Below are positions 24,001 through 38,553 of a stretch of 38,553 bases of DNA, in pieces. Each line of letters starts with the position of its first letter. Position 1 is the stretch's first letter. The stretch lies in NCBI GenBank assembly GCA_025363605.1, contig JANYDO010000104.1, forward strand, positions 1 through 38,553, read 5' to 3'. Made by a program: the position numbers and the translations under genes. This DNA is from Candidatus Kapaibacterium sp. (lineage in GTDB: Bacteria; Bacteroidota; Ignavibacteria; Kapaibacteriales; UBA4661). Under the pieces are notes generated by a model. The model ran no database searches, was not told the DNA's origin, and saw only the letters and a list, made by a program, of their open reading frames with translations.

Positions 24001-24579
24001 AGCGAAGTCGTACAGGCTTCCGCAACGACGGTGCAGCGCTTGGGCGAACGGAGTCTTGAGATTGGCGATATTATCGAAGTTATCAATTCTATTGCCAATC
24101 AGACCAATCTTCTGGCGCTGAACGCAGCTATTGAAGCTGCCCGCGCGGGTGAGCATGGCAAGGGATTTGCTATTGTTGCCGATGAAGTCCGGCAGCTTGC
24201 GGAAAGCACAACCAAAGCCACGAAGCAGATTACCACGATGGTCAAGCAAATCCAGCAAGACATCAGCGAGACCGTTACCACAATGAAGCAAGGAACCCGT
24301 GAGACGCAAACAGGCAAGCGCCTTGCAGAGAAAGCAGGCGTAGCGCTGGGCAGCATTATTGAGCAAACCGCAAAGGTCGCTAATATCACAACGCAAGTCG
24401 CAGCCGCAAGCGAAGAACAAGCCGCCACAAGCGAGGAAATACGCCGTAACGTGGACGACATGACGCATACGCTGGCGCAGTTCACAACAGAAATCACCGA
24501 GATTGCCGATGCTTCGGAATCACTCAAAGGGCTGGCTGTGAATCTACAAAAACTTACCAGACAATTCAGGATAGAATAA
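21034..24579 (+). CDS. Regulator-type propeller / Y_Y_Y sensor fused to chemoreceptor signalling domain
   Basis: This is a 1181-residue membrane sensor. The N-terminus has a signal segment (about residues 16-40, ending TQAQ). About 14 two-component-regulator propeller repeats follow (motif ED..G.LWIGT..GG..R...G.F..), to about residue 640. A Y_Y_Y domain ends near residue 770 ([22 protein letters not shown] ... [22 protein letters not shown]). One transmembrane helix lies at about 776-796 and a coiled-coil/HAMP-like segment at about 805-900. The methyl-accepting chemotaxis domain has the canonical hairpin [21 protein letters not shown] at about 1020-1040. The propeller + Y_Y_Y part is normally the periplasmic sensor of hybrid two-component systems; here it feeds the CheA/CheW-binding hairpin instead of a kinase. 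No che genes are in the window. The start could also be the Met at residue 14. Confidence 0.92.
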
Positions 24580-25143: not shown

Positions 25144-26001
25144 TCACGGTTTCTCATTCGGACGCTTGAGTTTTTTTGTGCCTTTCAGTGCTTTCTTTTC
25201 TTCGCTTTGCAAGCGGCGTTGTACTTTTTTTATGTCCTCATCGGGTGGCAAGTTCTCCGGTTTGATGCCGCGTTCAAGTAATGCCTTGCGCACGGTGCTA
25301 TTGCTCGCTTCGTGTTCACTGGTGATAGCACTTTCGCCGCGTACATCGTCTTTTTTGATATTAAAATTGGTAATTTCGTTTGCAAAGTCTTTTGCTTTTA
25401 TCGTGATGGTCGGCAAAAAATCCGCTAATGGGCGTGAATCCGGCACGTTCAATTTTTTCTTCATGTCTTTCGTACTATAACCGCCAAAAAGCACCTTGTC
25501 GCCTTTACTACGAATACGCGCAAAACCTTGTTCGTCTGCACCTTTTTCATAAATAATGCCGGAAAGTTCTTTTTCGGAAAGCGACAATTTTTCCCGTGCT
25601 TGCAGACGCTCTACGGCTTGAATACGTGCTTCTAAAAGCTCCTGCTTGCGTGTCTGCACCGCAAAATAACTCATTGCAAAGGCAATTTCTTCTTTGCGTG
25701 GGTCGCCGTTTTGGGCTGTCAAATAGCACGCATACCGCGTCAACATTATATCTTCAATCTCTCGCTCAGTGCCAGAGCCAATTCCGACCATTTTGCTAAC
25801 GTCAGCAAAATGGTCGTGAACTTCTTGACCTGCCGTAGAACAGGCTGTTTTTGCCTTTTCAATCACAGTCGCAAAATTCCGCCATTGTGCATATCCAAGC
25901 AAGTTTTGAAGCTCACGGGCGTACCAGTATTCTACACCGTCGTGTTGGTGGGCGGCTTGCTCGAAGTCGCTTGTGAGCGAATATATGATTTCTGCTTTCA
26001 T
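25144..26001 (-). CDS. dinD: DNA-damage-inducible protein D (DinD family)
   Basis: This 285-residue protein aligns by eye with E. coli DinD over most of its length: ARELQNLLGYAQWRNF, EVHDHFADVSKMVGIGS, LTRYACYLTAQNGDPRK, SYFAVQTRKQEL, LFGGYSTKDMKKK and ANEITNFNIKKDDV. The start is taken at ATG 26001 because the first eight codons of a longer reading (MYHHQRQI) have no family match. E. coli DinD (RecA inactivator) is SOS-regulated and inhibits RecA filament activity; homologues are often carried inside restriction–modification loci. Here it lies 89 bp downstream of an MmeI-like methyltransferase on the same strand, which fits that pattern. The Lys/Arg-rich C-terminus is variable in the family. 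Confidence 0.9.
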   Translation of the reverse strand: MKAEIIYSLTSDFEQAAHQHDGVEYWYARELQNLLGYAQWRNFATVIEKAKTACSTAGQEVHDHFADVSKMVGIGSGTEREIEDIMLTRYACYLTAQNGDPRKEEIAFAMSYFAVQTRKQELLEARIQAVERLQAREKLSLSEKELSGIIYEKGADEQGFARIRSKGDKVLFGGYSTKDMKKKLNVPDSRPLADFLPTITIKAKDFANEITNFNIKKDDVRGESAITSEHEASNSTVRKALLERGIKPENLPPDEDIKKVQRRLQSEEKKALKGTKKLKRPNEKP

Positions 26002-26090
26002 TATTTGACGTTGATGATGATACAAAAAACTGTTTTTCTTCTTTAACTTTCCTTTTTGCTTCGTTTCTTCCCGCCCGCCTTCGCTGCCGC

Positions 26091-28013
26091 CTACTCCGCT
26101 TCTGCTGTGAGCGGCGCTGTGTACCGTTCGTACAGCTCAAACAAAAACGTTATCCGCTCCTGCTCCGTACTGAAGGCTTTCTGGCGGTAGCATTTATCCA
26201 CTGCTCTGTCCAAGTCCTGATGCGCTTTTACAAGCGTAGGCGGCATCGAAAGCGGGTCGTAGAGGTCGGCGAGGGACGATGACGGAAACTGCGCTCGCGC
26301 ATCCAGCACCGCCTGTGCTGCCCGCTCTACGGCTTGTTTCTGGTCTGCGGTCGGGGTTTCTGCCCACGGGAAGTTGTTGTACACGATGGTACCAGAATAG
26401 TTGAAACGACTTTCTAATCGTCCTGTTACTACTCTGACCCAAGCCATATGCATTTCACTGGATAGAATCCCGAATTGGTAAAGGGTTGCATTGGGAATAA
26501 TGGAACATCTGTTGTTTACAATGATTTCCTTGGGCATGAAGCCAATTGGAATGTAAGGTCGCGTTTCCGATGAAACTAAAGGCACAAGCAAATAATCCTT
26601 GTCCGGCTGTCGGATTTCTGCAAACAGTGTTGGAATGGCTGCCAGACGCACAGTTGCTTGCTTTGTACTTGCTAATCGCATTTGCTTTACGCCTTCTATT
26701 CGTTGCATAATAAGCGGCATTGCTCGTAGCTCTTGCGGAGCAGCATCCTTCAGCCATAAACAATAGCGTTCGATATTGTTGATAAATTCGTCTGAGCCGT
26801 AAATGCGTCGAATAAACTTGGCTGCGTGCGGCTCTTTCGCAAGTAGCTCTAACTTTTCTGCGGGTGTAAGAAAAAGAAAGCCGCCATCTACGGGCTTATT
26901 ACCATAAATCATCTCCGGCACATTGCAAAGCGGTGTAGAACGGCTTTGCACCAACGTATTTCCCGCAGGAATGAGATAGGGACTGATATTCGGAACTTCG
27001 GAAACGTGCGGTTCGCTTGTGGGCGTGTCGTACTCGTAGAGCAGACGGAGAGCGGTTTTTACGACTTCTTTTGCCGCAAAGCCAATTATCACACAATGCA
27101 CAGCCGCTTTGCCCGGAGCCTCGTTTGTCCACTTGAACGTGCGGTGCGCAAAGTGAATGGTTATTTTGCGTGCAAAGAGTTCCGCCCACAACACACCAAC
27201 TTGCTCGCCTTGTGAAATAGAGTTCGTTGAAACAAAAGCCGCTTTAATACTTGTTCCAGAGATGTATTCACTTGCTTTCAAATACCAGCCCGTTACAAAG
27301 TCAAGCAAACCTGCATTTTTTACATTCCCCGTAATTGCAGCCATATCGCTACGCTGAGAATCACTCATGTATTTTGCTCCCACAAACGGCGGATTCCCGA
27401 CGATGTAGGAACACTCCGCAGGCGGCAGCACCTCGCGCCAATCCGTGCGCAGCGCGTTCCCATGCAGGATGTGGGCGGATTCGGTAAGCGGCAGCCGCGT
27501 GAAATACGAGCCAAACTGCTGCGAGGCGCGAAGATTCATCTGGTGGTCAGCAAGCCACAGTGCGACTTCGGTAATACGCGCGGGAAATTCTTCCAGTTCA
27601 ATACCGTAGAACTGCCCCACGTTCACCCACGTCATCGCTGCAATGTCGGTAGCAAGCTGCCCCGTGCCTTTGAGCGCGTCCAGCGTCGTCAGCACGTCCA
27701 ATTCAAGAGCGCGAAGTTCGCGGTAGGCAGTCACAAGGAAGTTTCCGCAACCGCAAGCAGGGTCGAAAATACGCACCTTTGCGAGGCGACGGTGAAATTC
27801 TTCCAGTTTGGGGCGGGTGCTTTTGGAAAGTTTCAGCGTTTTAAATTCCGCACGAAGGTCGTCCAGAAAAAGCGGCTTGAGTGCTTTCAGGATATTTTGC
27901 TCCGAGGTGTAGTGCGCTCCCAAAGCGCGGCGTTCTGCGGGGTTCATGGCGGCTTGGAACATCGAACCGAAAATTGCGGGCGAAATCCGACTCCAGTCTA
28001 GCGCACAACACAA
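26091..28013 (-). CDS. MmeI-like DNA methyltransferase/restriction enzyme, C-terminal part (interrupted gene)
   Basis: This fragment is the methylase and target-recognition half of an MmeI-type (YeeA-like) class I SAM-dependent DNA methyltransferase. Visible motifs, counted from the TTG at 28013, are LGAHYTSEQNILK near 31-43, motif I FDPACGCGNFL at 83-93, the N6-adenine motif IV NPPF at 207-210, and a long TRD-like region with FNYSGTIVYNNFPWAE before the C-terminal helices. There is no real start: TTG 28013 lies just inside the inserted element with no ribosome-binding site. Reading continues without interruption into the other half at 37937-38553 if the element is removed at its 20-bp direct repeat (shared residues CCALDW). 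As it stands the gene is split and this half is probably not expressed. dinD follows 89 bp downstream. Confidence 0.9.
   Translation of the reverse strand: MCCALDWSRISPAIFGSMFQAAMNPAERRALGAHYTSEQNILKALKPLFLDDLRAEFKTLKLSKSTRPKLEEFHRRLAKVRIFDPACGCGNFLVTAYRELRALELDVLTTLDALKGTGQLATDIAAMTWVNVGQFYGIELEEFPARITEVALWLADHQMNLRASQQFGSYFTRLPLTESAHILHGNALRTDWREVLPPAECSYIVGNPPFVGAKYMSDSQRSDMAAITGNVKNAGLLDFVTGWYLKASEYISGTSIKAAFVSTNSISQGEQVGVLWAELFARKITIHFAHRTFKWTNEAPGKAAVHCVIIGFAAKEVVKTALRLLYEYDTPTSEPHVSEVPNISPYLIPAGNTLVQSRSTPLCNVPEMIYGNKPVDGGFLFLTPAEKLELLAKEPHAAKFIRRIYGSDEFINNIERYCLWLKDAAPQELRAMPLIMQRIEGVKQMRLASTKQATVRLAAIPTLFAEIRQPDKDYLLVPLVSSETRPYIPIGFMPKEIIVNNRCSIIPNATLYQFGILSSEMHMAWVRVVTGRLESRFNYSGTIVYNNFPWAETPTADQKQAVERAAQAVLDARAQFPSSSLADLYDPLSMPPTLVKAHQDLDRAVDKCYRQKAFSTEQERITFLFELYERYTAPLTAEAE
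27991..28010. repeat. attL: 20-bp core of the satellite
   Basis: CTCCAGTCTAGCGCACAACA, identical to 37937-37956. The neighbouring bases differ (left A / right G before, C / T after), so the repeat is exactly 20 bp. On the minus strand it encodes CCALDW plus two bases of a Ser codon of the MmeI-like gene in the same frame at both ends. Confidence 0.95.
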
Positions 28014-28592
28014 CGCGCTAAGTTACTATAAATCAACAGCACACGCCGTTAATTGCAAGGGTTTTTTGCTTTTCACCTACACTCGCAATGCTCGTAAAAA
28101 CACGAAGGCTTATGAAACCTTAACATCTTATTTTAACCCGCTTGTTTCCTAGTTTTCAATGGGTACGGACTTTCCGAATCCCTTTGAGCAAAGGGTGTAG
28201 CAAAACGCGACACCCTTTGTTTGAAGGGTGTAACAATTCGTTATACCCTAACCGCGTTAGGGTTCATCAAAAGCGGCGAGCCAGTCCCAAACACAAGCAA
28301 ACAAGCCATTGCCGCAAATTGCCGCATTAGAAGTCCGTAGCTGCATTTTTATTTGCAAAACGACTAGAGTTATGGCTTACTGCGTAGCGATTCCGTTTTG
28401 TGGCATTTGGTACGCAGTAAGCCTATTTTGACCTGACATTACGATTGGTGATGTCAGCTTCTCATCTTCATCATCTAATCGGCTCAGATTCGTACATTTG
28501 CTCTTTGTGCCGTAAGACCAGATGTTATAGATTGACGGGGTGAAATCGTCGCCTTCTAGGTTGTAAACTCCATTTTGTGCGGGTTCGGCAAT
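28011..28592. other. Non-coding left end of the satellite with several inverted repeats
   Basis: No gene is supported here. I see CAAAGGGTGT (28189-28198) / ACACCCTTTG (28210-28219) followed by another AGGGTGTAAC (28226-28235) and by CCCTAAC-GCG-GTTAGGG-like palindrome near 28247-28263. There is a perfect 13-bp inverted repeat GGCTTACTGCGTA (28374-28386) / TACGCAGTAAGCC (28411-28423), and CTGACAT (28434-28440) / ATGTCAG (28451-28457). The repeated AGGGTGT boxes close to attL could be integrase or excisionase arm sites. The region next to terL could also hold a packaging (pac/cos) site. Both are inferences. Confidence 0.55.
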
Positions 28593-28719
28593 AAAAAAGT
28601 CCCATGCACCCCTTAAAGTAGCATGGGACTGAGGAATCACTAAAAGTTCCGACTCGTGCCGGAATCGTCGTGCTAGAATCCTGAAAACTCCAATCGTTTT
28701 CTTTTTTGACCTGACATTA
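28426..28719. repeat. 16-bp direct repeat TTTTGACCTGACATTA
   Basis: Exact copies lie at 28426-28441 and 28704-28719; the second sits two bases after the terL stop codon. On the minus strand each copy reads TAATGTCAGGTCAAAA and could start a very short peptide (MSGQ...), of 20 and 14 residues. I do not call these peptides genes. The copies flank the terminator. Confidence 0.7.
28593..28630 (-). terminator. Intrinsic terminator after terL
   Basis: On the minus strand AGTCCCATGC (28630-28621) pairs perfectly with GCATGGGACT (28608-28599) around a 12-nt loop and is followed by six T residues (28598-28593). It lies about 90 bp after the terL stop and ends the long minus-strand packaging operon. 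Confidence 0.9.
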
Positions 28720-28720
28720 T

Positions 28721-30025
28721 TCAGTAACCGTCCATTGTTCCAATGCCATACGTCCGCGTATCAAAGCTCATTTCCCCGCTTGTTATTCGTCGATTCCGTT
28801 TTGTCGGCAGTACGCCCCAGACAGTCGGACGTATATCCATTTGTCGTAGTGCCATCGCCAAACAATCTACTTGGTCGTCGTGCAATCGGCTCGGAAATGC
28901 ACTGCACTCATGGAGAAAGTTCCGCACAAAAGGAGCGTCGTTTTTCAAATACACCCGCCCTGCTTCTATTTTTGCGGTGTGTGCCGTCATGCGCTGCACT
29001 TTGCTTTCGGTCGGTGGTACGTCTTCCATAATGTTTAATGATGTTGTCTCACGGAGTTGTTGTACCAATGATACGCCCGTTGCCTTCGGTTCAACAATGA
29101 TGCGGCTTTCGGGTGTGTAGTCATGCTCTTGCACAAAGTCTGTCAAGTGTCGGCAGAAGTCAGGGAAGGGGAGATTAGCAACGCTCACGTCACGAATGTA
29201 CAGCGAGTGCGCGGTGTGGCTTTCGGCAGGGATATGAACGCCGTAACAAAGAATGACGCTGTTATCGCTGTTCTTTTTCCCGTAGGCGCTGTCAATCACA
29301 AAGTTCCACACAAGCGGTGGCGCTTCATCGTATCGGGCAAACCATTCAGGCTTTATCACACTTGCGCCGAAGTCTATAAATTGCCCACTCATATACATCA
29401 TCTGCAAACGGCTGTCGTAGCGGCTTTGCAGGTTTTCGATATACTCTTGTGGCAAGGCAGGATTGTCGGTGGTTTTGCCCCAGATAATTTCGCGGTTGGG
29501 CTTGCTATTCAGCACAAAATGTTCGTAACCCCAATTCATGCCCTCTGGCGTTCCCGTGAGGAAGAGAGCCAGTCGTGTGGCTTTCGGCTCTCGAATACGC
29601 CCTAGAGCCTCGTAATAGACTTGTTCTTGCATGATGAACGGTTCGTCCATCCAGACGTGACTGAGGTTTGTACCTTTCAAGCTATCAGGCGCATCGCCTG
29701 TTCCTATCCAAATTCGGCTTCCCCATTCTAGCGAGAAGAGTTTATCGGAGATATTGAAATCGTACTTGATGTTACTTCTGTCGAGCAGCGATTTGATTGT
29801 GGGAATGACGGTCTTTTTAGCCATTGGAAAATTTGGACTTATCACCATCGCATCACAACCACGATTCACGATAGACAGCCGAAGCGTCTCGGCAGCGCCC
29901 GCAATGGTCTTTCCTCCGCCGTACCCCGTTATTAAAGCTCGCTCAAATACTGGGCTTGCGTGAAAGCGTCGCTGGTGGTCGCTATTCGGCGAGTAAGCTA
30001 TGGTGCGCATCTGTCGTTGGCTCAT
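28721..30025 (-). CDS. Phage terminase large subunit (TerL)
   Basis: TerL is the packaging motor: an ATPase that pumps DNA into the procapsid and a nuclease that cuts the concatemer. The 434-residue protein is complete. The ATPase domain has Walker A GYGGGKT at 34-40, Walker B WMDE at 125-128 and the coupling motif LTGTP at 156-160. The RNase H-like nuclease has Asp245 (VIDSAYG), Glu312 (IIVEPKATG) and Asp383/384 (LHDDQVDCLAMAL). A Shine–Dalgarno GGAAGGAG precedes the ATG at 30025, which overlaps the end of terS by 44 bp. It is the last gene of the operon, before a terminator. Finding a full motor in an element without any capsid gene is odd, since most PICIs carry only a small terminase. Confidence 0.93.
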   Translation of the reverse strand: MSQRQMRTIAYSPNSDHQRRFHASPVFERALITGYGGGKTIAGAAETLRLSIVNRGCDAMVISPNFPMAKKTVIPTIKSLLDRSNIKYDFNISDKLFSLEWGSRIWIGTGDAPDSLKGTNLSHVWMDEPFIMQEQVYYEALGRIREPKATRLALFLTGTPEGMNWGYEHFVLNSKPNREIIWGKTTDNPALPQEYIENLQSRYDSRLQMMYMSGQFIDFGASVIKPEWFARYDEAPPLVWNFVIDSAYGKKNSDNSVILCYGVHIPAESHTAHSLYIRDVSVANLPFPDFCRHLTDFVQEHDYTPESRIIVEPKATGVSLVQQLRETTSLNIMEDVPPTESKVQRMTAHTAKIEAGRVYLKNDAPFVRNFLHECSAFPSRLHDDQVDCLAMALRQMDIRPTVWGVLPTKRNRRITSGEMSFDTRTYGIGTMDGY

Positions 30026-30479
30026 GGTCGTTTTCTCCTTCCTTTAGTTCTAGCGAAGTGTCTGCGTTTTCAATGCGTTCCGGGGCTTCCATAAAGCTCC
30101 AAGCTACATCGCCGCTTGCTTGCGCCGAATGTTCGATTTTATCACTCATGCCTAAATAATTTTTGGCTAAGAATATCAACAACGGGGGATTGCCATTTGT
30201 GATTGCTGCACGGTGCATCGCCCGCCGTAGCGAGACTTTGAACGTGCTGTCAACATATTCCATATGATACTCTGCGAAGGTTTGGTCGTACTCTTCTTTG
30301 CAGCGCCGCGTGAGCGTATCGTGGGAAATTTTCAGCACGGCACAAACCTCTTTCTGTGTGCATCCGATTGAGCATAAGTCATGGACAAGCACCCAATCAA
30401 TTTTTATCTTCGTACTCCGCTCGGCAGCGCCGCCCTGCTTTTGCAGGGCGGTTTGCGTGGTGGTGGTGGTATTACTCAT
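29982..30479 (-). CDS. Phage terminase small subunit (TerS)
   Basis: This 165-residue protein begins with a low-complexity MSNTTTTTQTAL segment. A homeodomain-like helix-turn-helix follows at about residues 28-60 (VHDLCSIGCTQKEVCAVLKISHDTLTRRCKEEY). The next helical stretch, STFKVSLRRAMHRAAITNGNPPLLIFLAKNYLGMSDK, is a common signature of small terminases and related phage HTH proteins. TerS oligomers recognise the packaging site and hand DNA to TerL. The position directly before terL, with a 44-bp overlap, supports the call. In satellites a private TerS redirects helper packaging to satellite DNA. The start overlaps the orf256 stop by 8 bp. Confidence 0.85.
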   Translation of the reverse strand: MSNTTTTTQTALQKQGGAAERSTKIKIDWVLVHDLCSIGCTQKEVCAVLKISHDTLTRRCKEEYDQTFAEYHMEYVDSTFKVSLRRAMHRAAITNGNPPLLIFLAKNYLGMSDKIEHSAQASGDVAWSFMEAPERIENADTSLELKEGENDHEPTTDAHHSLLAE

Positions 30480-31242
30480 GGATTACCTCTTCTGGTTTGT
30501 GGTCAGGGCGAGCCGCTCGGCGCAGGGAAAATGTCCCCGGCTCGCTATCAGATTCCGCCTCCCATAACCGCCGCGCATAGTGCCAGTTAAACATACCGCC
30601 CGCGCTATGGTGCAGGGCGGTTTGCGTCTCCAGTGTTTGGCTCGCAACAAGCATGGTTGTAGCCCAATGATAGAGCGGTTTGCGGAGTAAGATAAGCCCG
30701 GCGCGATTCAGTTGCAGCATGATACCGCCGTACTCTTTTTGCAGCGCGTCCAATTTCTCCGCCGTGTTCATCATCTCGTCGTGGATAGCCTTCGCCGACC
30801 TGCTGCGCTCCTCGTAGAACGATTGCCGCTTCTTATCCGCTTCCACCTCAAAACGGCGCTGTACCTCGCGCATAGCGGCTTGTTTGGCAATAACGTCGCT
30901 GGTGATACTTTCGGATTGTGTTTGCAAGCGCTTTAACTGCTCTTGTGTGTCGCAGTGTAGCTTTTTTGCCGTTTCCACTGCTTTTGCATCCGCCTCGCCA
31001 AGTTCAAAATCACGCCGAAGATTCTGCAATGCTTCCAGCGTTTCCGCCGACTGCGTTTGCAATGCCGCTTCTAGTGCTTTGAGGCTCACCAATTCTGCCC
31101 GCAGTTGTTCAACGGTCGTGCCGCTTTTCGTGAGCGCCGTAACATCTACCATTGCTGCGAAATCTGGTATCGGTTCGTCGTGTAAGTGTAATTCGTAAGC
31201 AGGGGAAAGCTGCAACGATGCTACAAATGGGGTGGTACTCAT
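30472..31242 (-). CDS. Coiled-coil protein orf256 upstream of terS (unknown)
   Basis: I do not recognise the family. The 256-residue protein has a long predicted coiled coil at about residues 38-175, rich in Glu, Gln, Lys and Ala with heptad-spaced leucines (VEQLRAELVSLKALEAALQ, then AAMREVQRRFEVEADKKRQ). A C-terminal globular part follows (about 180-256) with LNRAGLILLRKPLYHWATTM. There is no signal peptide or membrane segment. Its ATG touches the orf199 stop (TAAATG) and its end overlaps terS, so it is translated with the packaging genes. A scaffold-like or capsid-interfering role would fit the position, but nothing in the sequence proves it. Confidence 0.8.
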   Translation of the reverse strand: MSTTPFVASLQLSPAYELHLHDEPIPDFAAMVDVTALTKSGTTVEQLRAELVSLKALEAALQTQSAETLEALQNLRRDFELGEADAKAVETAKKLHCDTQEQLKRLQTQSESITSDVIAKQAAMREVQRRFEVEADKKRQSFYEERSRSAKAIHDEMMNTAEKLDALQKEYGGIMLQLNRAGLILLRKPLYHWATTMLVASQTLETQTALHHSAGGMFNWHYARRLWEAESDSEPGTFSLRRAARPDHKPEEVIHE

Positions 31243-31842
31243 TTAGTACGCCTCGCTTTCTCGGGCATACTCAGTGATGATTGCGTCGTACTCATCGTCA
31301 AAGCTCGTGCCGTTCTGCTTCATGCGTTTTTGTATTTCGGCGTAGAGCGCATCTCGTCCCGCTTGGGTGCCGGTGTCGAATTGTGTCGTACTGGAGCGCC
31401 CCATAGAACCTGTGATTTGATTCCACGTTTCGCCCGAAAAGTCTAGGCGCGGTGCTTCTGTGGCAATGGCAGTCACCGCCGCATCAAACGAAATGCCGCG
31501 CTCGGTGGCAATCGCATTTGCGAGTGCTGCGAAGTCCGCCCGTCCACCAGTGCTTTGCAGCATCTCGAATGGTACGCCGTGACCTGTTTTGTGGAGTGCC
31601 AGTAGCTCTGTGCCACGCGTTGCAATCGCTGGTGTAGCTGAAGAAAAATCAGCGCCCGCGGTGGTGTAGTCAGCAACGCCGAAGGTGCGAAGAACAAAAT
31701 GCGAGAGCGCGTCTAATCGCTCGGTATTCACGCCCGCCGCTTGTGCTGCACGTTCAATCGTGGTAGCAGCGCTTTGGAGCGTTTCGCCCGTGCGCTTTGC
31801 TAATTGCAGCGCCGCTTGGGTGATTATTGGGTTTGTTGTCAT
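31243..31842 (-). CDS. Satellite protein orf199 (unknown)
   Basis: I do not recognise the family. The 199-residue protein is Ala/Thr-rich and soluble, with a helical N-terminus (ITQAALQLAKRTGETLQSAATTIERAAQAAGV), a middle region ADFAALANAIATERGISFDAAVTAIATEAPRLDF and an acidic C-terminus (DDEYDAIITEYARESEAY). The segment ATERGISFDAAVTAI resembles short repeats seen in phage scaffold/protease-region proteins, but this is only an impression. The start ATG 31842 lies 39 bp after orf122 and the stop abuts orf256, placing it in the packaging operon. No catalytic motif is visible. Confidence 0.8.
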   Translation of the reverse strand: MTTNPIITQAALQLAKRTGETLQSAATTIERAAQAAGVNTERLDALSHFVLRTFGVADYTTAGADFSSATPAIATRGTELLALHKTGHGVPFEMLQSTGGRADFAALANAIATERGISFDAAVTAIATEAPRLDFSGETWNQITGSMGRSSTTQFDTGTQAGRDALYAEIQKRMKQNGTSFDDEYDAIITEYARESEAY

Positions 31843-31881
31843 ATCCGTCTTTCGATAATTAAAAATTAGTTAGAGTGAAAT

Positions 31882-32250
31882 TCAGTGCATTGCGCTCTCT
31901 ACCGTCATTGTGCCGTGCATATCCACGCAAATCAATTCATCAACGTAGAAATTTTCCTGCGTTTTTTTGCCCGCAAGAATTAGTCGGGCTTCTAAATCGG
32001 CGAGTTCAGATTCAAAAAGTGCTTCCGTTGCCTTCTCGCTGGCGATTCTTGCCTTGTCAGCATCCGCTAAGGCGTATTCTAGCCCCCAGCCAATCTCGTC
32101 AAGCTCGTCAGCGGTTAGCGATAGCGGTTGATGCTCTCGCAAGATTTGAGCTACGCCACAGACTGCCGCTTTCAGAATTGCAGACGTGTGAAGAACTTGC
32201 AATTCAGCATCTTTTTTAGTGCGCTCGGATATAAATGCTTTCGTACTCAT
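31882..32250 (-). CDS. Satellite protein orf122 with C-terminal copy of a primase segment
   Basis: This 122-residue protein starts at ATG 32250, just downstream of the candidate origin. The region before that ATG is the origin inverted repeat, so longer starts are unlikely. Residues 1-90 are helical and unrecognised (MSTKAFISERTKKDAELQ ... ADLEARLI). The last 30 residues, LAGKKTQENFY.DELICVDMHGTMTVES, closely match residues 214-241 of the primase encoded at 33931-34905. At the DNA level 87 bp are shared with 5 mismatches. The primase motif VDVDGT has become VDMHGT, so the second Asp is lost. This looks like a recombination-grafted tail rather than a working domain. It is the first gene of the orf122-terL series. 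Confidence 0.8.
   Translation of the reverse strand: MSTKAFISERTKKDAELQVLHTSAILKAAVCGVAQILREHQPLSLTADELDEIGWGLEYALADADKARIASEKATEALFESELADLEARLILAGKKTQENFYVDELICVDMHGTMTVESAMH
31891..31977. repeat. 87-bp duplicated primase segment, copy 1
   Basis: It matches 34180-34266 in the same orientation with 82 of 87 bases identical. The five differences cluster within about 30 bases. It forms the 3' end of orf122. Confidence 0.93.
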
Positions 32251-32313
32251 AGTGATTCTTTGAAAATGATTAAAAAATGATAGCGGATGTTCCGCCGTTT
32301 GGGTCAAAAGTTG

Positions 32314-32576
32314 TAATTCGTAGTACTTTATAGGGATTTTTCTTACCACAATCACCACATCACCATAACTTGTTGAAAATAAACATTTTAAGTGTGGTAA
32401 CTGGTTCTGACCACATCTGCTTTCTTGCTACCACATCTGCTTTCTTGTTACCACATGTGGTAATCGTGGTGAGATGTATTTACCGGTTCTTACCACGCTT
32501 AACGACTGCAAAAACAATGCTTTACGGTGATGTGGTAATTGTGGTAAGAAAAATCCCTATAAAGTACTACGAATTA
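32314..32576. other. Candidate replication origin: 51-bp inverted repeats with TACCAC iterons
   Basis: Arms 32314-32364 and 32526-32576 are 51-bp inverted repeats with one mismatch, centred on 32445. A second inverted pair, AAGTGTGGTAA (32390-32400) / TTACCACGCTT (32490-32500), shares that centre. Between them are two tandem 20-bp units beginning CCACATCTGCTTTCTTG (32411-32430, 32431-32450) and a perfect 16-bp palindrome TTACCACATGTGGTAA (32448-32463). TACCAC/GTGGTA occurs at least eight times. It lies exactly between the helicase stop and orf122. Iterons next to a primase–helicase pair are the usual form of satellite and phage origins. An operator for the downstream operon is the alternative, and both could be true. 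Confidence 0.75.
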
Positions 32577-33902
32577 TTCGTGCTTTGCTATATTTGCCAG
32601 TTGTTGCGCGGCATACATATACACCATTTTTTTACCAAGCCGTTTCTTCGCCCGTGTAAAGCCTAGTTTCCGAAGTGCCTGACCAAGATTGCGGATGTTC
32701 AGTGATTTTCCTGTTTTCGATTCTAGCAATGCGCTAATTTCACTGGTCATGTAAAAATCTTTTGTACCGGCCTCTGCCGGCGCGATAGGCTCAAACCATT
32801 GCAGCAAAACGTTTTCCTCAAGACTCGTACTCTCAAACTGTTGATTCGTGTCGGCAATAGTTTTCAATTCGGCACCGTCAAACCAATACTTTGCGCCTTG
32901 ATTGTAGAGGTGCAACGCCTGTGCATATAGTCCAAGCGTGTTCACCTCCTTATCTGTGATGCTGGTGGTTTGCACTACCCAGAAACGTCGGTTTCCTGTT
33001 GCGTCTCGTAAAAAGTCATCCGTGTTTACGCTTGCGCAAAAACTGCAAATGCGTTTCAATGTCTCGGCGTATGTGGCGTATGGGCGGCGTACTGAGATGC
33101 TCGGAGCGGACACTATCGTTTTCAGAAATGACACATCCGCCCTTGTGCTGCTATCCAATTCGTCTAAAATCGCAATGAACTTTTCAGCAATCATTATCCG
33201 ACTGTCTTTGTTGCTGTCGCTAATGGTTTCGGTTGCAGAACAATACGCCCGTAAGTCTTTCGGGAATAGCTTCAAAAGGAACTTTGTCTTTCCGACACCT
33301 TGTTCGCCCATCAGCGTCAGAATACCGTGATTTGCTATGTTGTGCAGTCCACAAGCGACGGTCGCAATTTGCCAACGGAGAAAATATAATTGCCATAGCT
33401 GTTGATGTTCAGGAATAGTTTGCACCATTGCTGCGGTCTCGGCGATATAATCGTGTCCATCCCATTTCGGCAATTTTTCGAAGAATGACGCAATCGGATT
33501 GAACGACGGGGCATTACTCAGCAGTACCGCTTGGACAATCTCGCTTCCAACAGATAAAAAGTCGGACTGTCTCGCCAAGTCCCGCCGAATCGTGGCGATA
33601 AATCTATCATCTACATCTGCATAACTATTCGGCTTGTGGTTCTCAGGGTGCTTGAGTGCGTAGGCTATGCGTCCTGTGATTACGTTGTAGTGCGAGTCGT
33701 ATTTGCCCGTAACGTGTTCCTCAGTTTCCGCCCACACATTGCGCCTTTTACCACGCCGTGAGGAGTTCGGACTTTTCGAAGGTGTTGTCTTTGCCTCTTG
33801 TTCCGGGTCTTGTGGTGACTCTGGCTCGTTAGCAGTGTTTTCGCGGATAAATTCACGATTATCGCGGTCAATTTCCTCGTTAGTTCGTTTAATCAGTTTC
33901 AT
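32574..33902 (-). CDS. VapE-like replicative helicase/ATPase
   Basis: This is a 442-residue protein of the virulence-associated E (VapE/D5-like) group. The start is ATG 33902; the preceding in-frame codons overlap the primase end. An N-terminal basic, low-complexity segment (about 20-55) precedes the conserved domain. Motifs are Walker A GEQGVGKT at 199-206, Walker B ILDELD at 245-250, and the hallmark SVNTDDFLRDATGNRRFWVV at 291-310 with the arginine-finger pair RR at 305-306. Such proteins unwind DNA for phage, satellite and pathogenicity-island replication and usually pair with a primase, here 28 bp upstream. The stop codon is the edge of the candidate origin's right arm, which couples helicase and origin physically. 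Confidence 0.9.
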   Translation of the reverse strand: MKLIKRTNEEIDRDNREFIRENTANEPESPQDPEQEAKTTPSKSPNSSRRGKRRNVWAETEEHVTGKYDSHYNVITGRIAYALKHPENHKPNSYADVDDRFIATIRRDLARQSDFLSVGSEIVQAVLLSNAPSFNPIASFFEKLPKWDGHDYIAETAAMVQTIPEHQQLWQLYFLRWQIATVACGLHNIANHGILTLMGEQGVGKTKFLLKLFPKDLRAYCSATETISDSNKDSRIMIAEKFIAILDELDSSTRADVSFLKTIVSAPSISVRRPYATYAETLKRICSFCASVNTDDFLRDATGNRRFWVVQTTSITDKEVNTLGLYAQALHLYNQGAKYWFDGAELKTIADTNQQFESTSLEENVLLQWFEPIAPAEAGTKDFYMTSEISALLESKTGKSLNIRNLGQALRKLGFTRAKKRLGKKMVYMYAAQQLANIAKHE

Positions 33903-33930
33903 AACTTTTAGTGATGTGAGTGTGAAAAAA

Positions 33931-34905
33931 TTAGCAAATCCAGTGTTGTTGGGGTGTCCAGACGTGCGCAGCGTTGTTGCCAAAGTATAGCTTGGTGATG
34001 TCCGTGCCGGAGCGGTCACCGTCGTACTCGCAAATCAATTCTTCCAACGCAGCGTGATAATATGCCGCGTTGCGCTCAAATCCTGCCATCGGAAACACAA
34101 TGCGAAATCGGTGGGATTCGGGCGTGTGGGATGCTGTCGTGTAAAGGAACAAGCAATTTCGCGTCAAACGGTGTTGTAGTGCGCTCTCTACCGTCATTGT
34201 GCCGTCCACATCCACGCAAATCAAGTCAGCACCGTAGAAATTTTCCTGCGTTTTTTTGCCCGCAAGCACACAGGGAATGAAGCAAAAACCACAACGCACA
34301 ATCTCTATTAACTGCGATAGAGTAAGGTTTTGATGCACAAAGGTTTTGAGAAAGTTCGCCCATTTTTGCCCATCGTGAACGCCGTCAGTGAGCAGTGTTT
34401 TATTCATCGCCCATTCCGACACGTTCACACGGTAGCACCGTTCGTGCGCAGCGTCAGGGAACTCAGCAAGGACACGCTGCTCCGCTTGCGGACGTGTTAA
34501 ACCGCCGTCGTACTGGTGAATTGCAGCACGTTCCTCGTGGGAACAATCTGCAAATGATGCGATGATAGGTTCGGAGCGAGAAGTAAGGTTTTGCGTAGGT
34601 CGGCGCGGCGGGGTGAACGGTATGAAATCATCTCGTTTGGCGCTCGTTAGTTCGCGGGTGTCAATGTTGTGCTGCCGGAGCAAATGAATCAACGTGCCGA
34701 AGGTAATATTGCGGAGCGGTTTGCGGAGTCGGCGCTCGGTATCGCCGCGTTTTTTGTCCAGTGCAACGATACCGGCTTCGGTCAAAATGTGCAGTGCTAT
34801 TTCGGCACCAAACTCGGAAACGAGTGCGGCAATGACCCGCAAATAATCTTTGTAATCAGTATGTCCAAGCTGTGATATTGCTTGGATTAATGCGGAATTT
34901 TGCAT
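33931..34905 (-). CDS. AEP-like primase of the satellite
   Basis: This 324-residue protein starts at ATG 34905, preceded by AAGGAC at a good ribosome-binding distance. Residues 1-110 are a helical accessory region. Residues about 210-324 hold the archaeo-eukaryotic primase-like signature as in BT4734-type primases: LICVDVDGT with Asp232/Asp234, then SHTPESHRFRIVFPM (His265, Arg266, Arg268) and DRSGTDITKLYFGN with Asp302. It would make primers for element replication together with the adjacent VapE-like helicase. An 87-bp part around the DxD motif is duplicated at the 3' end of orf122. The protein ends soon after the last motif, so the catalytic core is C-terminal and short. Family assignment is by motifs only. 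Confidence 0.8.
   Translation of the reverse strand: MQNSALIQAISQLGHTDYKDYLRVIAALVSEFGAEIALHILTEAGIVALDKKRGDTERRLRKPLRNITFGTLIHLLRQHNIDTRELTSAKRDDFIPFTPPRRPTQNLTSRSEPIIASFADCSHEERAAIHQYDGGLTRPQAEQRVLAEFPDAAHERCYRVNVSEWAMNKTLLTDGVHDGQKWANFLKTFVHQNLTLSQLIEIVRCGFCFIPCVLAGKKTQENFYGADLICVDVDGTMTVESALQHRLTRNCLFLYTTASHTPESHRFRIVFPMAGFERNAAYYHAALEELICEYDGDRSGTDITKLYFGNNAAHVWTPQQHWIC
34180..34266. repeat. 87-bp duplicated primase segment, copy 2 (inside primase gene)
   Basis: This is the parent-like copy. It encodes primase residues of the catalytic DxD motif (ICVDVDGTMTVES). It matches 31891-31977 directly, about 2.3 kb away. Confidence 0.93.
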
Positions 34906-34975
34906 AGTTTTGTCCTTAGAAAATGTTATGAATTGTTTGCCCGCAGCTAGGATAAAAGACTTCTGCGGGCTTTTT

Positions 34976-35266
34976 TTATGCCATAGCGGATAGGTGAGCA
35001 TCAGTGAACAAGATTCGCTTGCCCATGCTTTTGTATTGGAGTTTGCCGGAACGTACTTTTTTGGCAAGCGTCGGTAGCGATACACCGAGTTTCCGAGCCG
35101 CTTCCTTGCGGGAATAAAAGCGGACTTCGGTTTGTTGAGCCATAGGGAGTGTGCGCAGGGCTTCGGCTTGGGCTTCAAGCAAAACTTTACGCAGCATCAG
35201 TTCTAGCTGTACAGCATCAAGTACGACGATACCGCCGTTTGGGGAGTAGTGGGTGTGGGTAGTCAT
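34976..35266 (-). CDS. Excisionase-type helix-turn-helix protein
   Basis: This is a 96-residue protein starting at ATG 35266; a longer reading through the upstream hairpin (to 35452) is unlikely. The C-terminal half (49-96) is a MerR/excisionase-like winged helix: RFYSRKEAARKLGVSLPTLAKKVRSGKL followed by KSMGKRILFTDAHLSAM. The N-terminal half is a short amphipathic helix (LDAVQLELMLRKVLLEAQAEAL). In Bacteroidota elements this family serves as Xis or as an operon activator, like AlpA in Gram-negative satellites. It stands 70 bp before the primase and directly behind a long hairpin region, which makes a role in switching the replication operon likely (inference). Confidence 0.85.
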   Translation of the reverse strand: MTTHTHYSPNGGIVVLDAVQLELMLRKVLLEAQAEALRTLPMAQQTEVRFYSRKEAARKLGVSLPTLAKKVRSGKLQYKSMGKRILFTDAHLSAMA

Positions 35267-35331
35267 TGCAGCTATGAATATGGGTGACGATTGCCGCGTT
35301 ATCGCAAAGGAGAAAACAAGAAAGGTGTTGT

Positions 35332-35449
35332 GGGAGACCGATGCACGTGCTATTTTTGAATTACTACATCTAAAAATAGGTGCAAGTGCATCTGTCTCCC
35401 GCTTCTTTGCGGTGTTTTCCCACTGCGATTGAGCGGGTTTTTTATTTTT
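35332..35449 (+). ncRNA. Candidate small RNA: long hairpin plus intrinsic terminator
   Basis: Arms 35332-35357 (GGGAGACCGATGCACGTGC...) and 35372-35400 form a long imperfect hairpin (about 24 pairs, 14-nt loop). On the plus strand it runs into CCCGCTT (35398-35404) / GAGCGGG (35431-35437), with an inner GCGGTG / CACTGC stem, then TTTTTTATTTTT. The terminator polarity is plus-strand, opposite to every gene of the element, so a separate antisense-oriented RNA is implied. No promoter could be assigned. The hairpin could instead be an operator for the HTH gene. Confidence 0.45.
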
Positions 35450-35542
35450 CAAAGGGCAGGTGTTGTTTCCCGTCCTTTCTGAATGTAAAAATATGGAATT
35501 TTTCGGGTAAGTCGGACTTACTCAGTCCTTACCCTATTGTTA

Positions 35543-36214
35543 TTATTTCACAAGATACGGCAAGACCGCTTGCGAAGCCGATTCAGCGTCCAGAGTTCCT
35601 TGTTTTCCACTGCCGCTTATCATTTTTGATAATGACGTTTCGCCCCATTTTTCTGAGGCTGCGGGAACAAACTTCATGGCGAGCTGTGCTAATGGTTTCG
35701 GTTGCATATTTAATGTTGCCCGCAAGGTGTCCATGATAAGTGCTACGTCCGTCTTGCTGCACAACCATTGAAGTTCCCCATCTATAACAACGGCAAAGGC
35801 TTGTCGTAAATTGTCTCGTAATACTATTGCTGTGTCTTGCGTTGGTGCTGGTACGGTGGTAGCAGCACTGCGTAATCGTTCTTGCAAAAGGGCTTGCAAG
35901 CCGCCAGCCTCATTCGGAAGCCGCGAAATGAAGTATTCGGTGAATGTTTTCGGGTGCGCTTGTGCGATATACTCTGGGAAGGTCGTGTCTGCCAGTTCTG
36001 GCTTGCTGTGGAGTATTTTTGCTAGTCCATCAGCAAACTTCGCAGATGCTTCATCAAACGAAGTAATCGTATGCTGCGTGTCCCGCCAAAAGTCATCGTA
36101 TGCGTAGCACATTAAGTCGCGTTCAACAGCGGATATTGTCCAGTCGGCGTACTCTTGCCAGTCTTCGCGTGTCCATGCGGAATAGTCTATTGGTCTCTCG
36201 CAGTTATTTTCCAT
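35543..36214 (-). CDS. Satellite protein orf223 (unknown)
   Basis: I do not recognise the family. The 223-residue soluble protein starts MENNCERPIDYSAWTREDWQEYADWTISAVERDLMCYAYDDFW, which is acidic and aromatic-rich. The middle is helical (PNEAGGLQALLQERLRSAATTVPAP), and a segment around 130-175 (DTAIVLRDNLRQAFAVVIDGELQWLCSKTDVALIMDTL) resembles a small alpha/beta domain. It ends GKQGTLDAESASQAVLPYLVK. It lies between hicB (27 bp) and the HTH gene (277 bp), the place where satellites often keep regulatory or helper-interference genes. No motif allows a function. Confidence 0.8.
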   Translation of the reverse strand: MENNCERPIDYSAWTREDWQEYADWTISAVERDLMCYAYDDFWRDTQHTITSFDEASAKFADGLAKILHSKPELADTTFPEYIAQAHPKTFTEYFISRLPNEAGGLQALLQERLRSAATTVPAPTQDTAIVLRDNLRQAFAVVIDGELQWLCSKTDVALIMDTLRATLNMQPKPLAQLAMKFVPAASEKWGETSLSKMISGSGKQGTLDAESASQAVLPYLVK

Positions 36215-36241
36215 ATCTTTGTAGGGGTTGAAATATTTGTT

Positions 36242-36418
36242 TCACCAAAACTTTGCCGCGCCGTAATGCTCAATAAAGAAATCAATAGCAGAACGAGTAT
36301 CGGCAAGGGCTTCCTCATACGTTTCGCCTTGTCCAACGATAGCGCCCGCCTTGAAACCAAGCGGATAGCCTACAAAGCCGTCTTCGTGCTGTTCAATAAT
36401 GATTTTAACAGGACTCAT
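36242..36418 (-). CDS. HicB-like small protein (no HicA partner seen)
   Basis: The 58-residue product reads MSPVKIIIEQHEDGFVGYPL followed by FKAGAIVGQGETYEEALADTRSAIDFFIEHYG, the partial RNase H-like fold of HicB antitoxins (E..DGF.G..P....VGQG.T.EEAL.N...AI). ATG 36418 is preceded by AAGGAA at normal distance. HicB normally follows the small RNase toxin HicA; the 50 bp upstream up to the integrase and the 27 bp downstream contain no HicA, so the gene is solo. It lacks the C-terminal DNA-binding domain of longer HicB forms. It may be a regulator, an anti-toxin decoy or a remnant. Confidence 0.82.
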   Translation of the reverse strand: MSPVKIIIEQHEDGFVGYPLGFKAGAIVGQGETYEEALADTRSAIDFFIEHYGAAKFW

Positions 36419-36468
36419 TGCTTTGTTCCTTGAAGTATTGATAAACTGTTTTTACGGATTTTGTGTGT

Positions 36469-37749
36469 TTAGGTGCGCTTGGTTCTTTTCGCCTTCGGTG
36501 CGGGTGCTGGTTCGTTTGTCCAGATTGCATCCATTCCGGCTTTCACGGTTTTGTCATCCAACTCTAGGTATTTTTTCATCATGGCATTGGTCTTGTGACC
36601 TGTGACCTTCATCACGGTTTCCGCTCCCATGCCACGCGCAATAGACAGCGAGACAAAGGTACGCCGAGCGGTGTGTGTGCCGACAAGTTTCCACTTCGGT
36701 ACGGTCTTGATAATCGTTTCATTGCCACGTGAGCGAGTGACGGTAGTGGGCGTATCGATGCCACACTCACGGCAGCACTGCTTGATATAGCGATTGGTAT
36801 TCGTGTTGGAGATAGTCGGCACTTTGCCGAGCGCTTGGTACTTGTTGGCAATAGCATTTGATAAAGTATTCATCGGAATCTTTAGCAAAGTCCCCGTCTT
36901 TTGTGTTCTCAGTACCCAGTAGCCGCCTTGCACGTCTTCGTGTTTGAACCTAATAATATCGCTGAATCGTTGCCCTGTGGCGGTTTGGAAGAGGAAACAG
37001 TCTCGCACTTTTTCCAGAGAAGGTGCGTGAGAAAAGTCGTGATTCCACAGCGCAATCAATTCCGATTCATCAAGAGCGATAACTTCAATTTCGTCTGTTT
37101 CTAACATTGTGAATTTGCCGTACTTCGTGCTGGTGTGATATTCCCTATCGGCAGCCCATTTCATAAAGAGCTTCGTCATTTTGAAGAGCTTGTTGATAGT
37201 GTTATTCAGCAATCCAACTTTTTCCAGTAGGTACGGGCGGAATTGGTCTTGGAACTTTAAGTCTATCGTGTCAAAGCGCAAGGCGTAACCCTCAGTCTCT
37301 GCGAAATCAGCAAGGTACTTGCGAAGGGTTCTGAATTTATTCCATGTGTTTGTTTCCCATTCCTTTTTTTTCAAATCCAAAAATATATCATACACCGTAA
37401 GGAAGTCGGATTGCTTTTCCGGCTCAAAGATTGCCCTCAGAGAAAGCCGAGCGCGGTCAAATACCTCTTCTGCCATATCCGCCTTGCTTGTGTTTGTCAG
37501 CAGCGTTATCGCATGGTCTGTGACCTCTTGTGAGTATTTATTCAGGAGTTTGTTTAGCTCCGCGCTCCCTGCCATTTGTGATTTTGCGCGTTGTTCTTTT
37601 TTGTCCCACATCTTTGCAGCTATGGTTTGCCGAGTAGAGATAACGATAGCACGTTTGTTGCCACGTGGTATGCCACGAATGTAGAGCATGATAGCAAATT
37701 TGCCGAATTTGTCTGGCTTGGAATCAAGATAGAAATTTACTTTTGCCAT
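36469..37749 (-). CDS. int: Tyrosine-type integrase of the satellite
   Basis: This 426-residue site-specific recombinase is of the Bacteroidota phage/transposon type. ATG 37749 is chosen over the GTG two codons upstream. The order is an arm-binding N-terminal domain (1-105, MAKVNFYLDSKPDKFGKFAIMLYI), a SAM-like core-binding domain (about 110-210, with KKEWETNTWNKFRTLRKYLADF) and the catalytic domain. Catalytic residues are Arg261 (TATGQRFSDI), Lys284 (TQKTG), His359 and Arg362 (THTARRTF), His385 (VTGHKT) and the nucleophile Tyr394 (MMKKYLEL). All are present. It lies 187 bp inside attR and reads inward, which is the usual layout. The C-terminus is Lys/Arg/Pro-rich. Confidence 0.95.
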   Translation of the reverse strand: MAKVNFYLDSKPDKFGKFAIMLYIRGIPRGNKRAIVISTRQTIAAKMWDKKEQRAKSQMAGSAELNKLLNKYSQEVTDHAITLLTNTSKADMAEEVFDRARLSLRAIFEPEKQSDFLTVYDIFLDLKKKEWETNTWNKFRTLRKYLADFAETEGYALRFDTIDLKFQDQFRPYLLEKVGLLNNTINKLFKMTKLFMKWAADREYHTSTKYGKFTMLETDEIEVIALDESELIALWNHDFSHAPSLEKVRDCFLFQTATGQRFSDIIRFKHEDVQGGYWVLRTQKTGTLLKIPMNTLSNAIANKYQALGKVPTISNTNTNRYIKQCCRECGIDTPTTVTRSRGNETIIKTVPKWKLVGTHTARRTFVSLSIARGMGAETVMKVTGHKTNAMMKKYLELDDKTVKAGMDAIWTNEPAPAPKAKRTKRT

Positions 37750-37756
37750 AATCACC

Positions 37757-37787
37757 GCCTGAAACTAATGGGAGAAAAACAAAAGTA
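37757..37787 (-). promoter_or_regulatory. Possible integrase promoter and ribosome-binding site
   Basis: On the minus strand TACTTTTG (37787-37780) matches the Bacteroidota -7 element TAnnTTTG, 31 bp before the integrase ATG. A clear -33 box was not seen. AGGCGG just before the start could act as ribosome-binding site. Confidence 0.35.
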
Positions 37788-37863
37788 CAGAAAAGCGCCC
37801 TGAAAACCTACACTTTTTCTTTTCTGTGGTTGTTTTTTGGCAAAAGAGAAAGAAAGAAAGCCC

Positions 37864-38553
37864 TTAAAAGCCAGCAATAGAGAGGCATTTAATAAAAGAA
37901 GAAAAATACAGAGAAAGGATAATAAAGCGCGTTATGCTCCAGTCTAGCGCACAACATTCCATCAGCGTTTCGCGCATAGAGCGGTCAAATTGCGCAATTT
38001 GGAGGTGGTCGCGGAATAAGCCGCCGTTCACGTAGGGGAGAGCTTGAAGCTGCTCGTCGAGCGTTTTCATGCGCTTCTGCGGCGCTGTATTCAGCACTTG
38101 GAAAATTTGGGAAAGATGAATGCCGAGGTCGCTTCCATCCTCGCTTGTGCGGGTTTCGATAAATTCCAAAAACGCATTTTTCTCAAAAATCGCGGTGTCT
38201 TCGGCAAACATACAGAAGAGCAAGCGCACCAGCAGCATTTCGAGGTCGTGTCCCTCAAATCCACATTCACTGAGGCGGTCGTGCAATCTGCCCATGCGCT
38301 GCGCCGCTTCGACGTTCACAGGGTCTTCGCTGGAAAAAGTACGCTTTTCGTAACCCGCCATAAATCCGAAATGACGGACGTTCTGGACAAATTCGCTGAT
38401 GGGAAACTCGTGAAAATGGTTGGGATCGGCGGATTCCAAGTCGTAGAGCCGGAAGCGGGCAAAATCCGAGACCAGCACGTACTTGGGCAACTGCGTGTCT
38501 TTCAATCCCGGAAAATACTCCAACGCCTGATGGAAAGCGCGGTCAAGATTTTT
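37864..38553 (-). CDS. MmeI-like protein, N-terminal part (interrupted, 5' end outside window)
   Basis: The frame is open to the right edge and continues beyond it, reading KNLDRAFHQALEYFPGLKDTQ at the edge. The sequence LPKYVLVSDFARFRLYDLES ... FGFMAGYEKRTF ... LLVRLLFCMFAEDTAIFE ... LPYVNGGLFRD is typical of the helical spacer domain between the nuclease and methylase parts of MmeI-family enzymes. True coding ends at the att core (CCALDW). The 23 residues after it (ITRFIILSLYFSSF...) are read from element DNA and stop at 37864. Joined to the other half, 838 codons are visible, which fits a family length near 920 with the nuclease region outside the window. Whether the PD-(D/E)XK motif is intact cannot be seen. 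Confidence 0.88.
   Translation of the reverse strand, partial: KNLDRAFHQALEYFPGLKDTQLPKYVLVSDFARFRLYDLESADPNHFHEFPISEFVQNVRHFGFMAGYEKRTFSSEDPVNVEAAQRMGRLHDRLSECGFEGHDLEMLLVRLLFCMFAEDTAIFEKNAFLEFIETRTSEDGSDLGIHLSQIFQVLNTAPQKRMKTLDEQLQALPYVNGGLFRDHLQIAQFDRSMRETLMECCALDWSITRFIILSLYFSSFIKCLSIAGF
37937..37956. repeat. attR: 20-bp core of the satellite
   Basis: CTCCAGTCTAGCGCACAACA, identical to attL at 27991-28010 and in the same orientation. It encodes the same CCALDW residues in the N-terminal half of the MmeI-like gene. Confidence 0.95.

Follow-up and report, generated by a model that had tools for sequence, protein, structure and literature searches.

A putative PICI-like phage satellite that carries both terminase subunits without recognisable head genes and interrupts an MmeI-type restriction-modification gene

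The window (the whole stretch of DNA analysed, 38,553 nucleotides) contains a 9.95-kb element at 27991-37956, delimited by exact 20-bp direct repeats (CTCCAGTCTAGCGCACAACA) with a spacing of 9,946 bp (Table 1). All annotated genes of the element are on the minus strand and the coding share is 89%. Read from the right, the gene for a tyrosine integrase is followed by those for a 58-aa protein, orf223, an HTH_17 protein, a primase and a VapE helicase; an iteron-rich origin region, orf158, orf199, orf256, terS, terL and the doubtful orf87 come next, the last being an 87-codon ORF that stands alone between terL and att repeat 1. Pfam, PHROG and TIGR families identified no portal, protease, capsid, tail or lysis gene among the ORFs, so that the 9.95 kb between the att repeats hold no recognisable structural or lysis gene. 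The description of the element as capsid-less, made without boundaries in an earlier note on this DNA, therefore stood: bar chance-level tape-measure matches of orf256, no ORF other than the terminase genes matched a head or tail family. Searches of the element with Pfam and PHROG likewise returned no relaxase or mobilisation family and no repressor family or divergent master repressor. No Bro-network or AlpA gene was recognisable within the element, the 58-aa protein had no Pfam match, and an Rfam scan of the element gave no match.

Insertion has split an MmeI-type (type IIL) restriction-modification gene at the CCALDWS motif. When the two flanks were joined at the repeat, a single open frame of 838 codons resulted, incomplete at the contig end only; intact orthologues in the same-genus genomes G003, G005, G006 and G007 have open frames of 924 to 1029 codons. 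DNA alignment ran unbroken across the insertion point in five relatives with an empty site (G003, G005, G006, G007 and G009), too small a sample for the PICI criterion of an att site never used by prophages. Collectively, the repeats, the two halves of the restriction-modification gene and the unbroken relatives fix the ends of the element and show that the site exists empty. Between the tmRNA gene and the MmeI-type gene, positions 25144-26025 encode a BRO-N domain protein (PF02498, 2.3e-9), DinD-like by eye. Elsewhere in the window, a 1181-aa protein (21034-24579) appeared by eye to combine a beta-propeller sensor of the two-component-regulator type with a methyl-accepting chemotaxis signalling domain, not a kinase, and 40-8540 is a large repetitive region with long plus-strand open frames containing short repeats rich in valine, proline and threonine.

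Table 1 Features of the element and its insertion site, and related elements of the same genus. Values after family or locus names are E-values unless given as a percentage.
Feature	Location	Strand	Evidence or remark
att repeat 1, CTCCAGTCTAGCGCACAACA, terminase side	27991..28010		exact 20-bp direct repeat; core partly kept in MmeI genes of intact relatives
att repeat 2, integrase side	37937..37956		exact 20-bp direct repeat
Tyrosine integrase, inward	36469..37755	-	PF13102 2.8e-10, PF00589 4.2e-8; 46% identity to L121 integrase
58-aa conserved protein, common to sister elements	36242..36418	-	L124 4e-22, L040 2e-7
orf223, unknown	35543..36214	-	no significant Pfam or PHROG match
HTH_17 excisionase/regulator	34976..35452	-	PF12728 1.5e-6; PHROG excisionase 9.9e-7
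Primase-like protein	33931..35178	-	PHROG DNA primase 9e-9
VapE/DUF5906 replicative helicase	32574..34019	-	PF05272 4.5e-36, PF19263 2.1e-9; PHROG helicase 5.2e-55
Putative replication origin	32314..32576		7 GTGGTAA iterons; 55-bp inverted repeat, 96%
orf158, small protein, C-terminus copied from primase segment	31882..32358	-	92-bp repeat, 92%
orf199, unknown, two G.SFD motif copies, abuts orf256	31243..31842	-	AF2 pLDDT 52, mostly helical
orf256, coiled-coil protein, overlaps terS start	30472..31242	-	AF2 pLDDT 68, long helix 85-211
terS, terminase small subunit, 165 aa	29982..30479	-	weak PHROG; match to prophage terS
terL, terminase large subunit, 434 aa	28721..30025	-	Pfam, PHROG, TIGR matches; all motifs
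orf87, unknown, may be no gene	28377..28640	-	ORF alone; no Pfam or PHROG match
3' part of interrupted MmeI-type gene (MTase, TRD, C-terminal domains)	26091..28013	-	PF20473 6e-95, PF20466 1.3e-76, PF20467 1.6e-35
5' part of same gene (N-terminal, helicase-spacer domains), ends at contig edge	37937..38553	-	PF20464 4.7e-21, PF20465 8.6e-26
L121 element	G006:C4 7438-15403		7.9 kb; 69-bp repeat at 3' end of tmRNA gene, region syntenic to window
L125 element, second in G006	G006:C28 6216-11917		related integrase, protease-like + major capsid
L040 sister element	G007:C128 4616-15395		primase-VapE, SLT transglycosylase, NikA-like mobilisation domain
L124 sister element	G004:C39 5173-16464		primase-VapE, SLT transglycosylase

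The earlier note had described TerL as complete, with its motifs and nuclease acidic residues kept and its gene overlapping terS, and both the profile matches and a motif check confirmed this. TerL matched the Pfam families Terminase_3 (1.9e-10), Terminase_6N (1.2e-9) and Terminase_6C (1.4e-5), the PHROG annotation 'terminase large subunit' (4.2e-35) and, above cut-off, TIGR01630. Its motifs are Walker A GYGGGKT (residues 34-40), Walker B HVWMDEP (123-129) and LTGTP (156-160), and the nuclease acidic residues lie in VIDSAYG (243-249), IIVEPKA (309-315) and LHDDQVD (381-387); D245, D384 and D387 were invariant in an alignment with 8 homologues. The overlap between terS and terL is 44 bp. For TerS the profile matches were weak, with E 0.006-0.03 for four PHROG terminase small subunits, but in prophages L031, L072, L076 and L077 the product of the gene immediately before terL is homologous to it (E 7e-10 to 5e-5). 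Neighbouring genes overlap or abut from orf199 through orf256 and terS to terL, an arrangement consistent with one operon.

Directly behind vapE lies a region with seven GTGGTAA iterons in 263 bp, compared with 16 in the whole window and about 4 expected there by chance. These iterons sit within the 55-bp inverted repeat (96% complementarity), and the folding z-score was -13.1. On these features we predict that the region is a replication origin. A 92-bp segment of the primase gene (34175-34266) is duplicated with 92% identity at the end of orf158 (31886-31977), which gives orf158 an apparently primase-derived C-terminus.

The two genes upstream of terS were examined by structure prediction, the earlier note having proposed this as a way to reveal capsid or portal proteins. 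No sign of either was seen, in models that were poor: both were made without homologues, and the orf199 model was too weak for a fold search. A search of viral and PDB libraries with the orf256 model gave no significant fold match. Neither protein matched a portal, capsid or protease family; the tape-measure matches of the coiled-coil orf256 were at chance level (E 0.25 and 0.89), and orf199 had no homologue at E < 0.05 among 149 genomes. A match of orf199 in viral contig L079 (57% over 35 aa) was rejected, as this contig is from a large phage and the matching stretch belongs to an unrelated protein of 405 aa. Within orf199 a helix-G-x-SFD-helix motif was observed twice. In phage head proteases and scaffolds, motifs of the G-x-SFD type are located close to the C-terminus, and by this analogy the motif would fit a capsid-adapting role. 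The position of orf256 is, we infer, like that of the SaPI cpm/ppi genes.

The closest integrase relative found (46% identity) belongs to the L121 element of G006, a genome of the same genus. Besides an inward integrase and a homologue of the HTH_17 protein (E 1.6e-16), this element encodes proteins resembling a primase/helicase and a prohead protease, together with a major capsid protein of the HK97 type (PF05065, 7.7e-15; TIGR01554 above cut-off). The capsid protein of L125, the second element in this genome, is 90% identical to that of L121, and no terminase match was found in either. L125 sits between the integrase and the YqaJ-like gene of another mobile element, which is present uninterrupted elsewhere on that contig (L127 9282-11169). 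An integrase, an HTH_17 protein and primase-VapE are common to the L040 and L124 elements, as is a homologue of the 58-aa protein, and neither had a terminase or capsid match; in L040 an iteron cluster comes directly after vapE. Homologues of the HTH_17 protein were found in all four elements. Judged by gene content, the host genus harbours several small elements with one backbone and differing late genes. Sister elements with a capsid gene but no terminase suggest piecemeal swapping of head and packaging genes among the satellites of one genus.

TerL homologues in 391 genomes of the class aligned over part of their length, with about 25-43% identity. Those with sufficient flanking sequence were mostly in prophages, with portal-type genes directly downstream of terS-terL, or upstream of them in one clade. 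Four of these loci (L064, L068, L073 and L074) have terS-terL at the end of a head cluster, with head-morphogenesis genes directly upstream. The earlier note would have abandoned its view had the homologues been found mainly in full prophages with the same neighbours. The first half of this proved true and the second did not: the homologues are flanked by portal, MuF or protease genes, all absent from the element. In a tree of 43 TerL proteins the window TerL stood alone on a long branch, indicating that it was not recently taken from any sampled prophage. The phylogeny was meant to reveal the helper type, and this isolated position left cos or pac unassignable; a weak sequence match to the solved TerL 4zni (E 2e-5), which we take to be that of Thermus phage P74-26, only hints at a headful type. 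The 391 genomes, and viral contigs searched with single proteins, yielded no second element that pairs terS and terL with a lack of head genes. Viral contig L043, with VapE and TerL, was discarded because it looks like a fragment of a bigger phage genome, rich in further genes, and unlike an element of 10 kb. The 5-kb contig L057, from the same taxonomic order, has a phage-like gene arrangement (VapE, small genes, terS, terL); its TerL and that of L033 share 54% identity, and as a 700-aa portal-sized gene follows terL in L033, L057 is probably a phage.

No helper phage was identified. Searching the host genome for a portal with PF04860 and with the G001 portal as query gave no match in an assembly of 567 pieces. 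One contig of this assembly (G000:C62, L102, 1-4170) contains prohead protease-like, HK97-type capsid and connector-like genes; this 4.2-kb piece may be part of a prophage, possibly a helper, or of another satellite. Its gene content shows that phages with HK97-type heads have entered this strain, and nothing more.

We propose, with a probability of roughly 0.55, that the element is a PICI-like phage satellite that carries a complete terminase and borrows the portal, head and tail of a helper. Several observations point this way: the closest integrase relative, L121, and L125 are small elements of the same gene order, with an inward integrase, protease-like and capsid genes and no terminase match; the backbone, including VapE, recurs in L040 and L124, and L040 has iterons after vapE; and the element is 89% coding on a single strand, keeps the catalytic motifs of TerL and has an empty site in five genomes. 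Its chief weakness is that no second satellite with terS and terL was found in the genomes and contigs searched. We use the term PICI-like rather than PICI because the divergent repressor pair of Gram-positive PICIs was not found and dependence on a helper is a prediction. In the proposed cycle, an active helper phage would cause the element to excise, restoring the restriction-modification frame, and the excised element would replicate from the iteron origin. Its own TerS would mark its own packaging site, and its own TerL would dock on the helper portal and fill helper heads with satellite DNA; a possible role of orf199 and orf256 is to adapt the head or portal of the helper. The satellite would thus bring along the whole motor and borrow only head and tail.

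The main alternative is a head-deleted prophage. In this explanation, which we consider unlikely, a temperate phage integrated in the MmeI-type gene lost everything from portal to lysis beyond terL, with both att sites left; an internal deletion would spare these sites and leave the host gene in frame. Both the TerL homologues in full prophages and the phage-like gene order of L057, whose TerL relative in L033 precedes a portal-sized gene, are in line with such an origin, but the integrase is directed inward, and its closest examined relatives, like those of the HTH_17 protein, belong to small satellite-like elements and not to phages. The iteron origin also follows vapE, a position shared with the satellite-like L040. 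The element is 89% coding and holds no recognisable remnant of head, tail or lysis genes, although such remnants would also be missing after a clean deletion.

The intact ATPase and nuclease sites argue against an interference module, in which the terminase would mainly compete with the helper terminase for portals rather than package DNA; a decoy would not need them. This possibility, suggested by the single putative operon from orf199 to terL and by the common interference of satellites with helper reproduction (PMC6092414), appears highly improbable to us. Slighter still is the chance that orf199, orf256 or both are very diverged head proteins of a cryptic cf-PICI: their position directly upstream of terS-terL is that of the head-morphogenesis genes in L064, L068, L073 and L074, yet portal, capsid and protease families are unmatched in the element, and both proteins are short (199 and 256 aa) with weak models that are nearly all helix, as opposed to the beta-rich HK97 capsid. 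We give just as little credence to transfer by another route such as conjugation, with the terminase genes as passengers. The NikA-like mobilisation domain protein of the sister element L040 would favour it; in the window element relaxase and mobilisation matches are missing and the terminase is the only recognisable transfer function.

If the element is a satellite with its own motor, a satellite can replace the whole terminase of its helper and not the TerS specificity subunit alone, and the locus would be a natural case in which to test how far a portal depends on the motor that belongs to it. A wider generalisation is put forward tentatively, as something short of an even bet: that satellites swap in a full packaging motor of their own, that genus mates carry protease and capsid instead, each at its own att site, and that the att site used here switches an MmeI-type restriction-modification gene. 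The enzyme, which both cuts and methylates, would be off while the element is integrated and have its frame restored on excision, a possible satellite-controlled switch. If read correctly, such an insertion would couple the excision of a satellite to restriction and modification in its host.

Compared with known satellites, the element resembles SaPIs of the pac type in having terS after the replication genes, an origin after the primase/helicase and, immediately ahead of terS, two genes of no assigned function. In SaPIs this position is occupied by genes for capsid size and TerS interference. Unlike the present element, they borrow the helper TerL and have a divergent Stl repressor with the integrase on its side; here terL is present, all genes are on the minus strand and no divergent regulatory pair (Stl/Rpr) of the Gram-positive PICIs was found. 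In cf-PICIs, terS and terL also occur with integrase and replication genes, but these satellites also have genes for capsid, protease, portal and connectors (summarised in PMC10690885), whereas no ORF here matched a major capsid protein, protease, portal or connector. The lack of portal, capsid, tail and lysis genes between the att repeats distinguishes the element from a complete prophage. The SpyCI of Streptococcus pyogenes, such as SpyCIM1, are similarly satellite-like islands that interrupt a protein-coding gene of the host, and their excision restores it; they differ in targeting the 5' end of mutL and in having no terminase subunit at all (PMC4129442).

The layout fits that of Gram-negative PICIs, which have integration, Bro, replication and late zones and an inward integrase, outward in prophages (PMC10111431). 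The element shows this integrase direction and the order integration, replication, late. It shares with Gram-negative and helper-embedded PICIs (EcCICFT073, 11capE) its small size, single strand, HTH_17/AlpA-type protein, primase, DUF5906 and late genes. As in PICIs, where rep genes precede the origin (PMC6092414), its primase and VapE/DUF5906 module is followed by the iteron cluster with the 55-bp inverted repeat, the putative origin. It differs in its host group, in its late zone of terS and terL without capsid, and in having no recognised AlpA or Bro-network gene (orf223 and the 58-aa protein had no Pfam match). Gram-negative PICIs carry assorted captured phage late genes, and 21 of 29 reference PICIs have a capsid gene (PMC10111431). 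Together with the protease-like and capsid genes of L121 and L125, found without terminase, this makes the division drawn in the earlier note, TerS only in classic PICIs and everything in cf-PICIs, too sharp. The published satellites that we found carry terS only, a capsid gene whether accompanied by terminase or not, the complete set of both, or no gene of either kind; one with terL and no capsid did not appear in the open-access literature searched, which is incomplete. The element is thus a new combination in a known modular zone, and not clearly an evolutionary intermediate.
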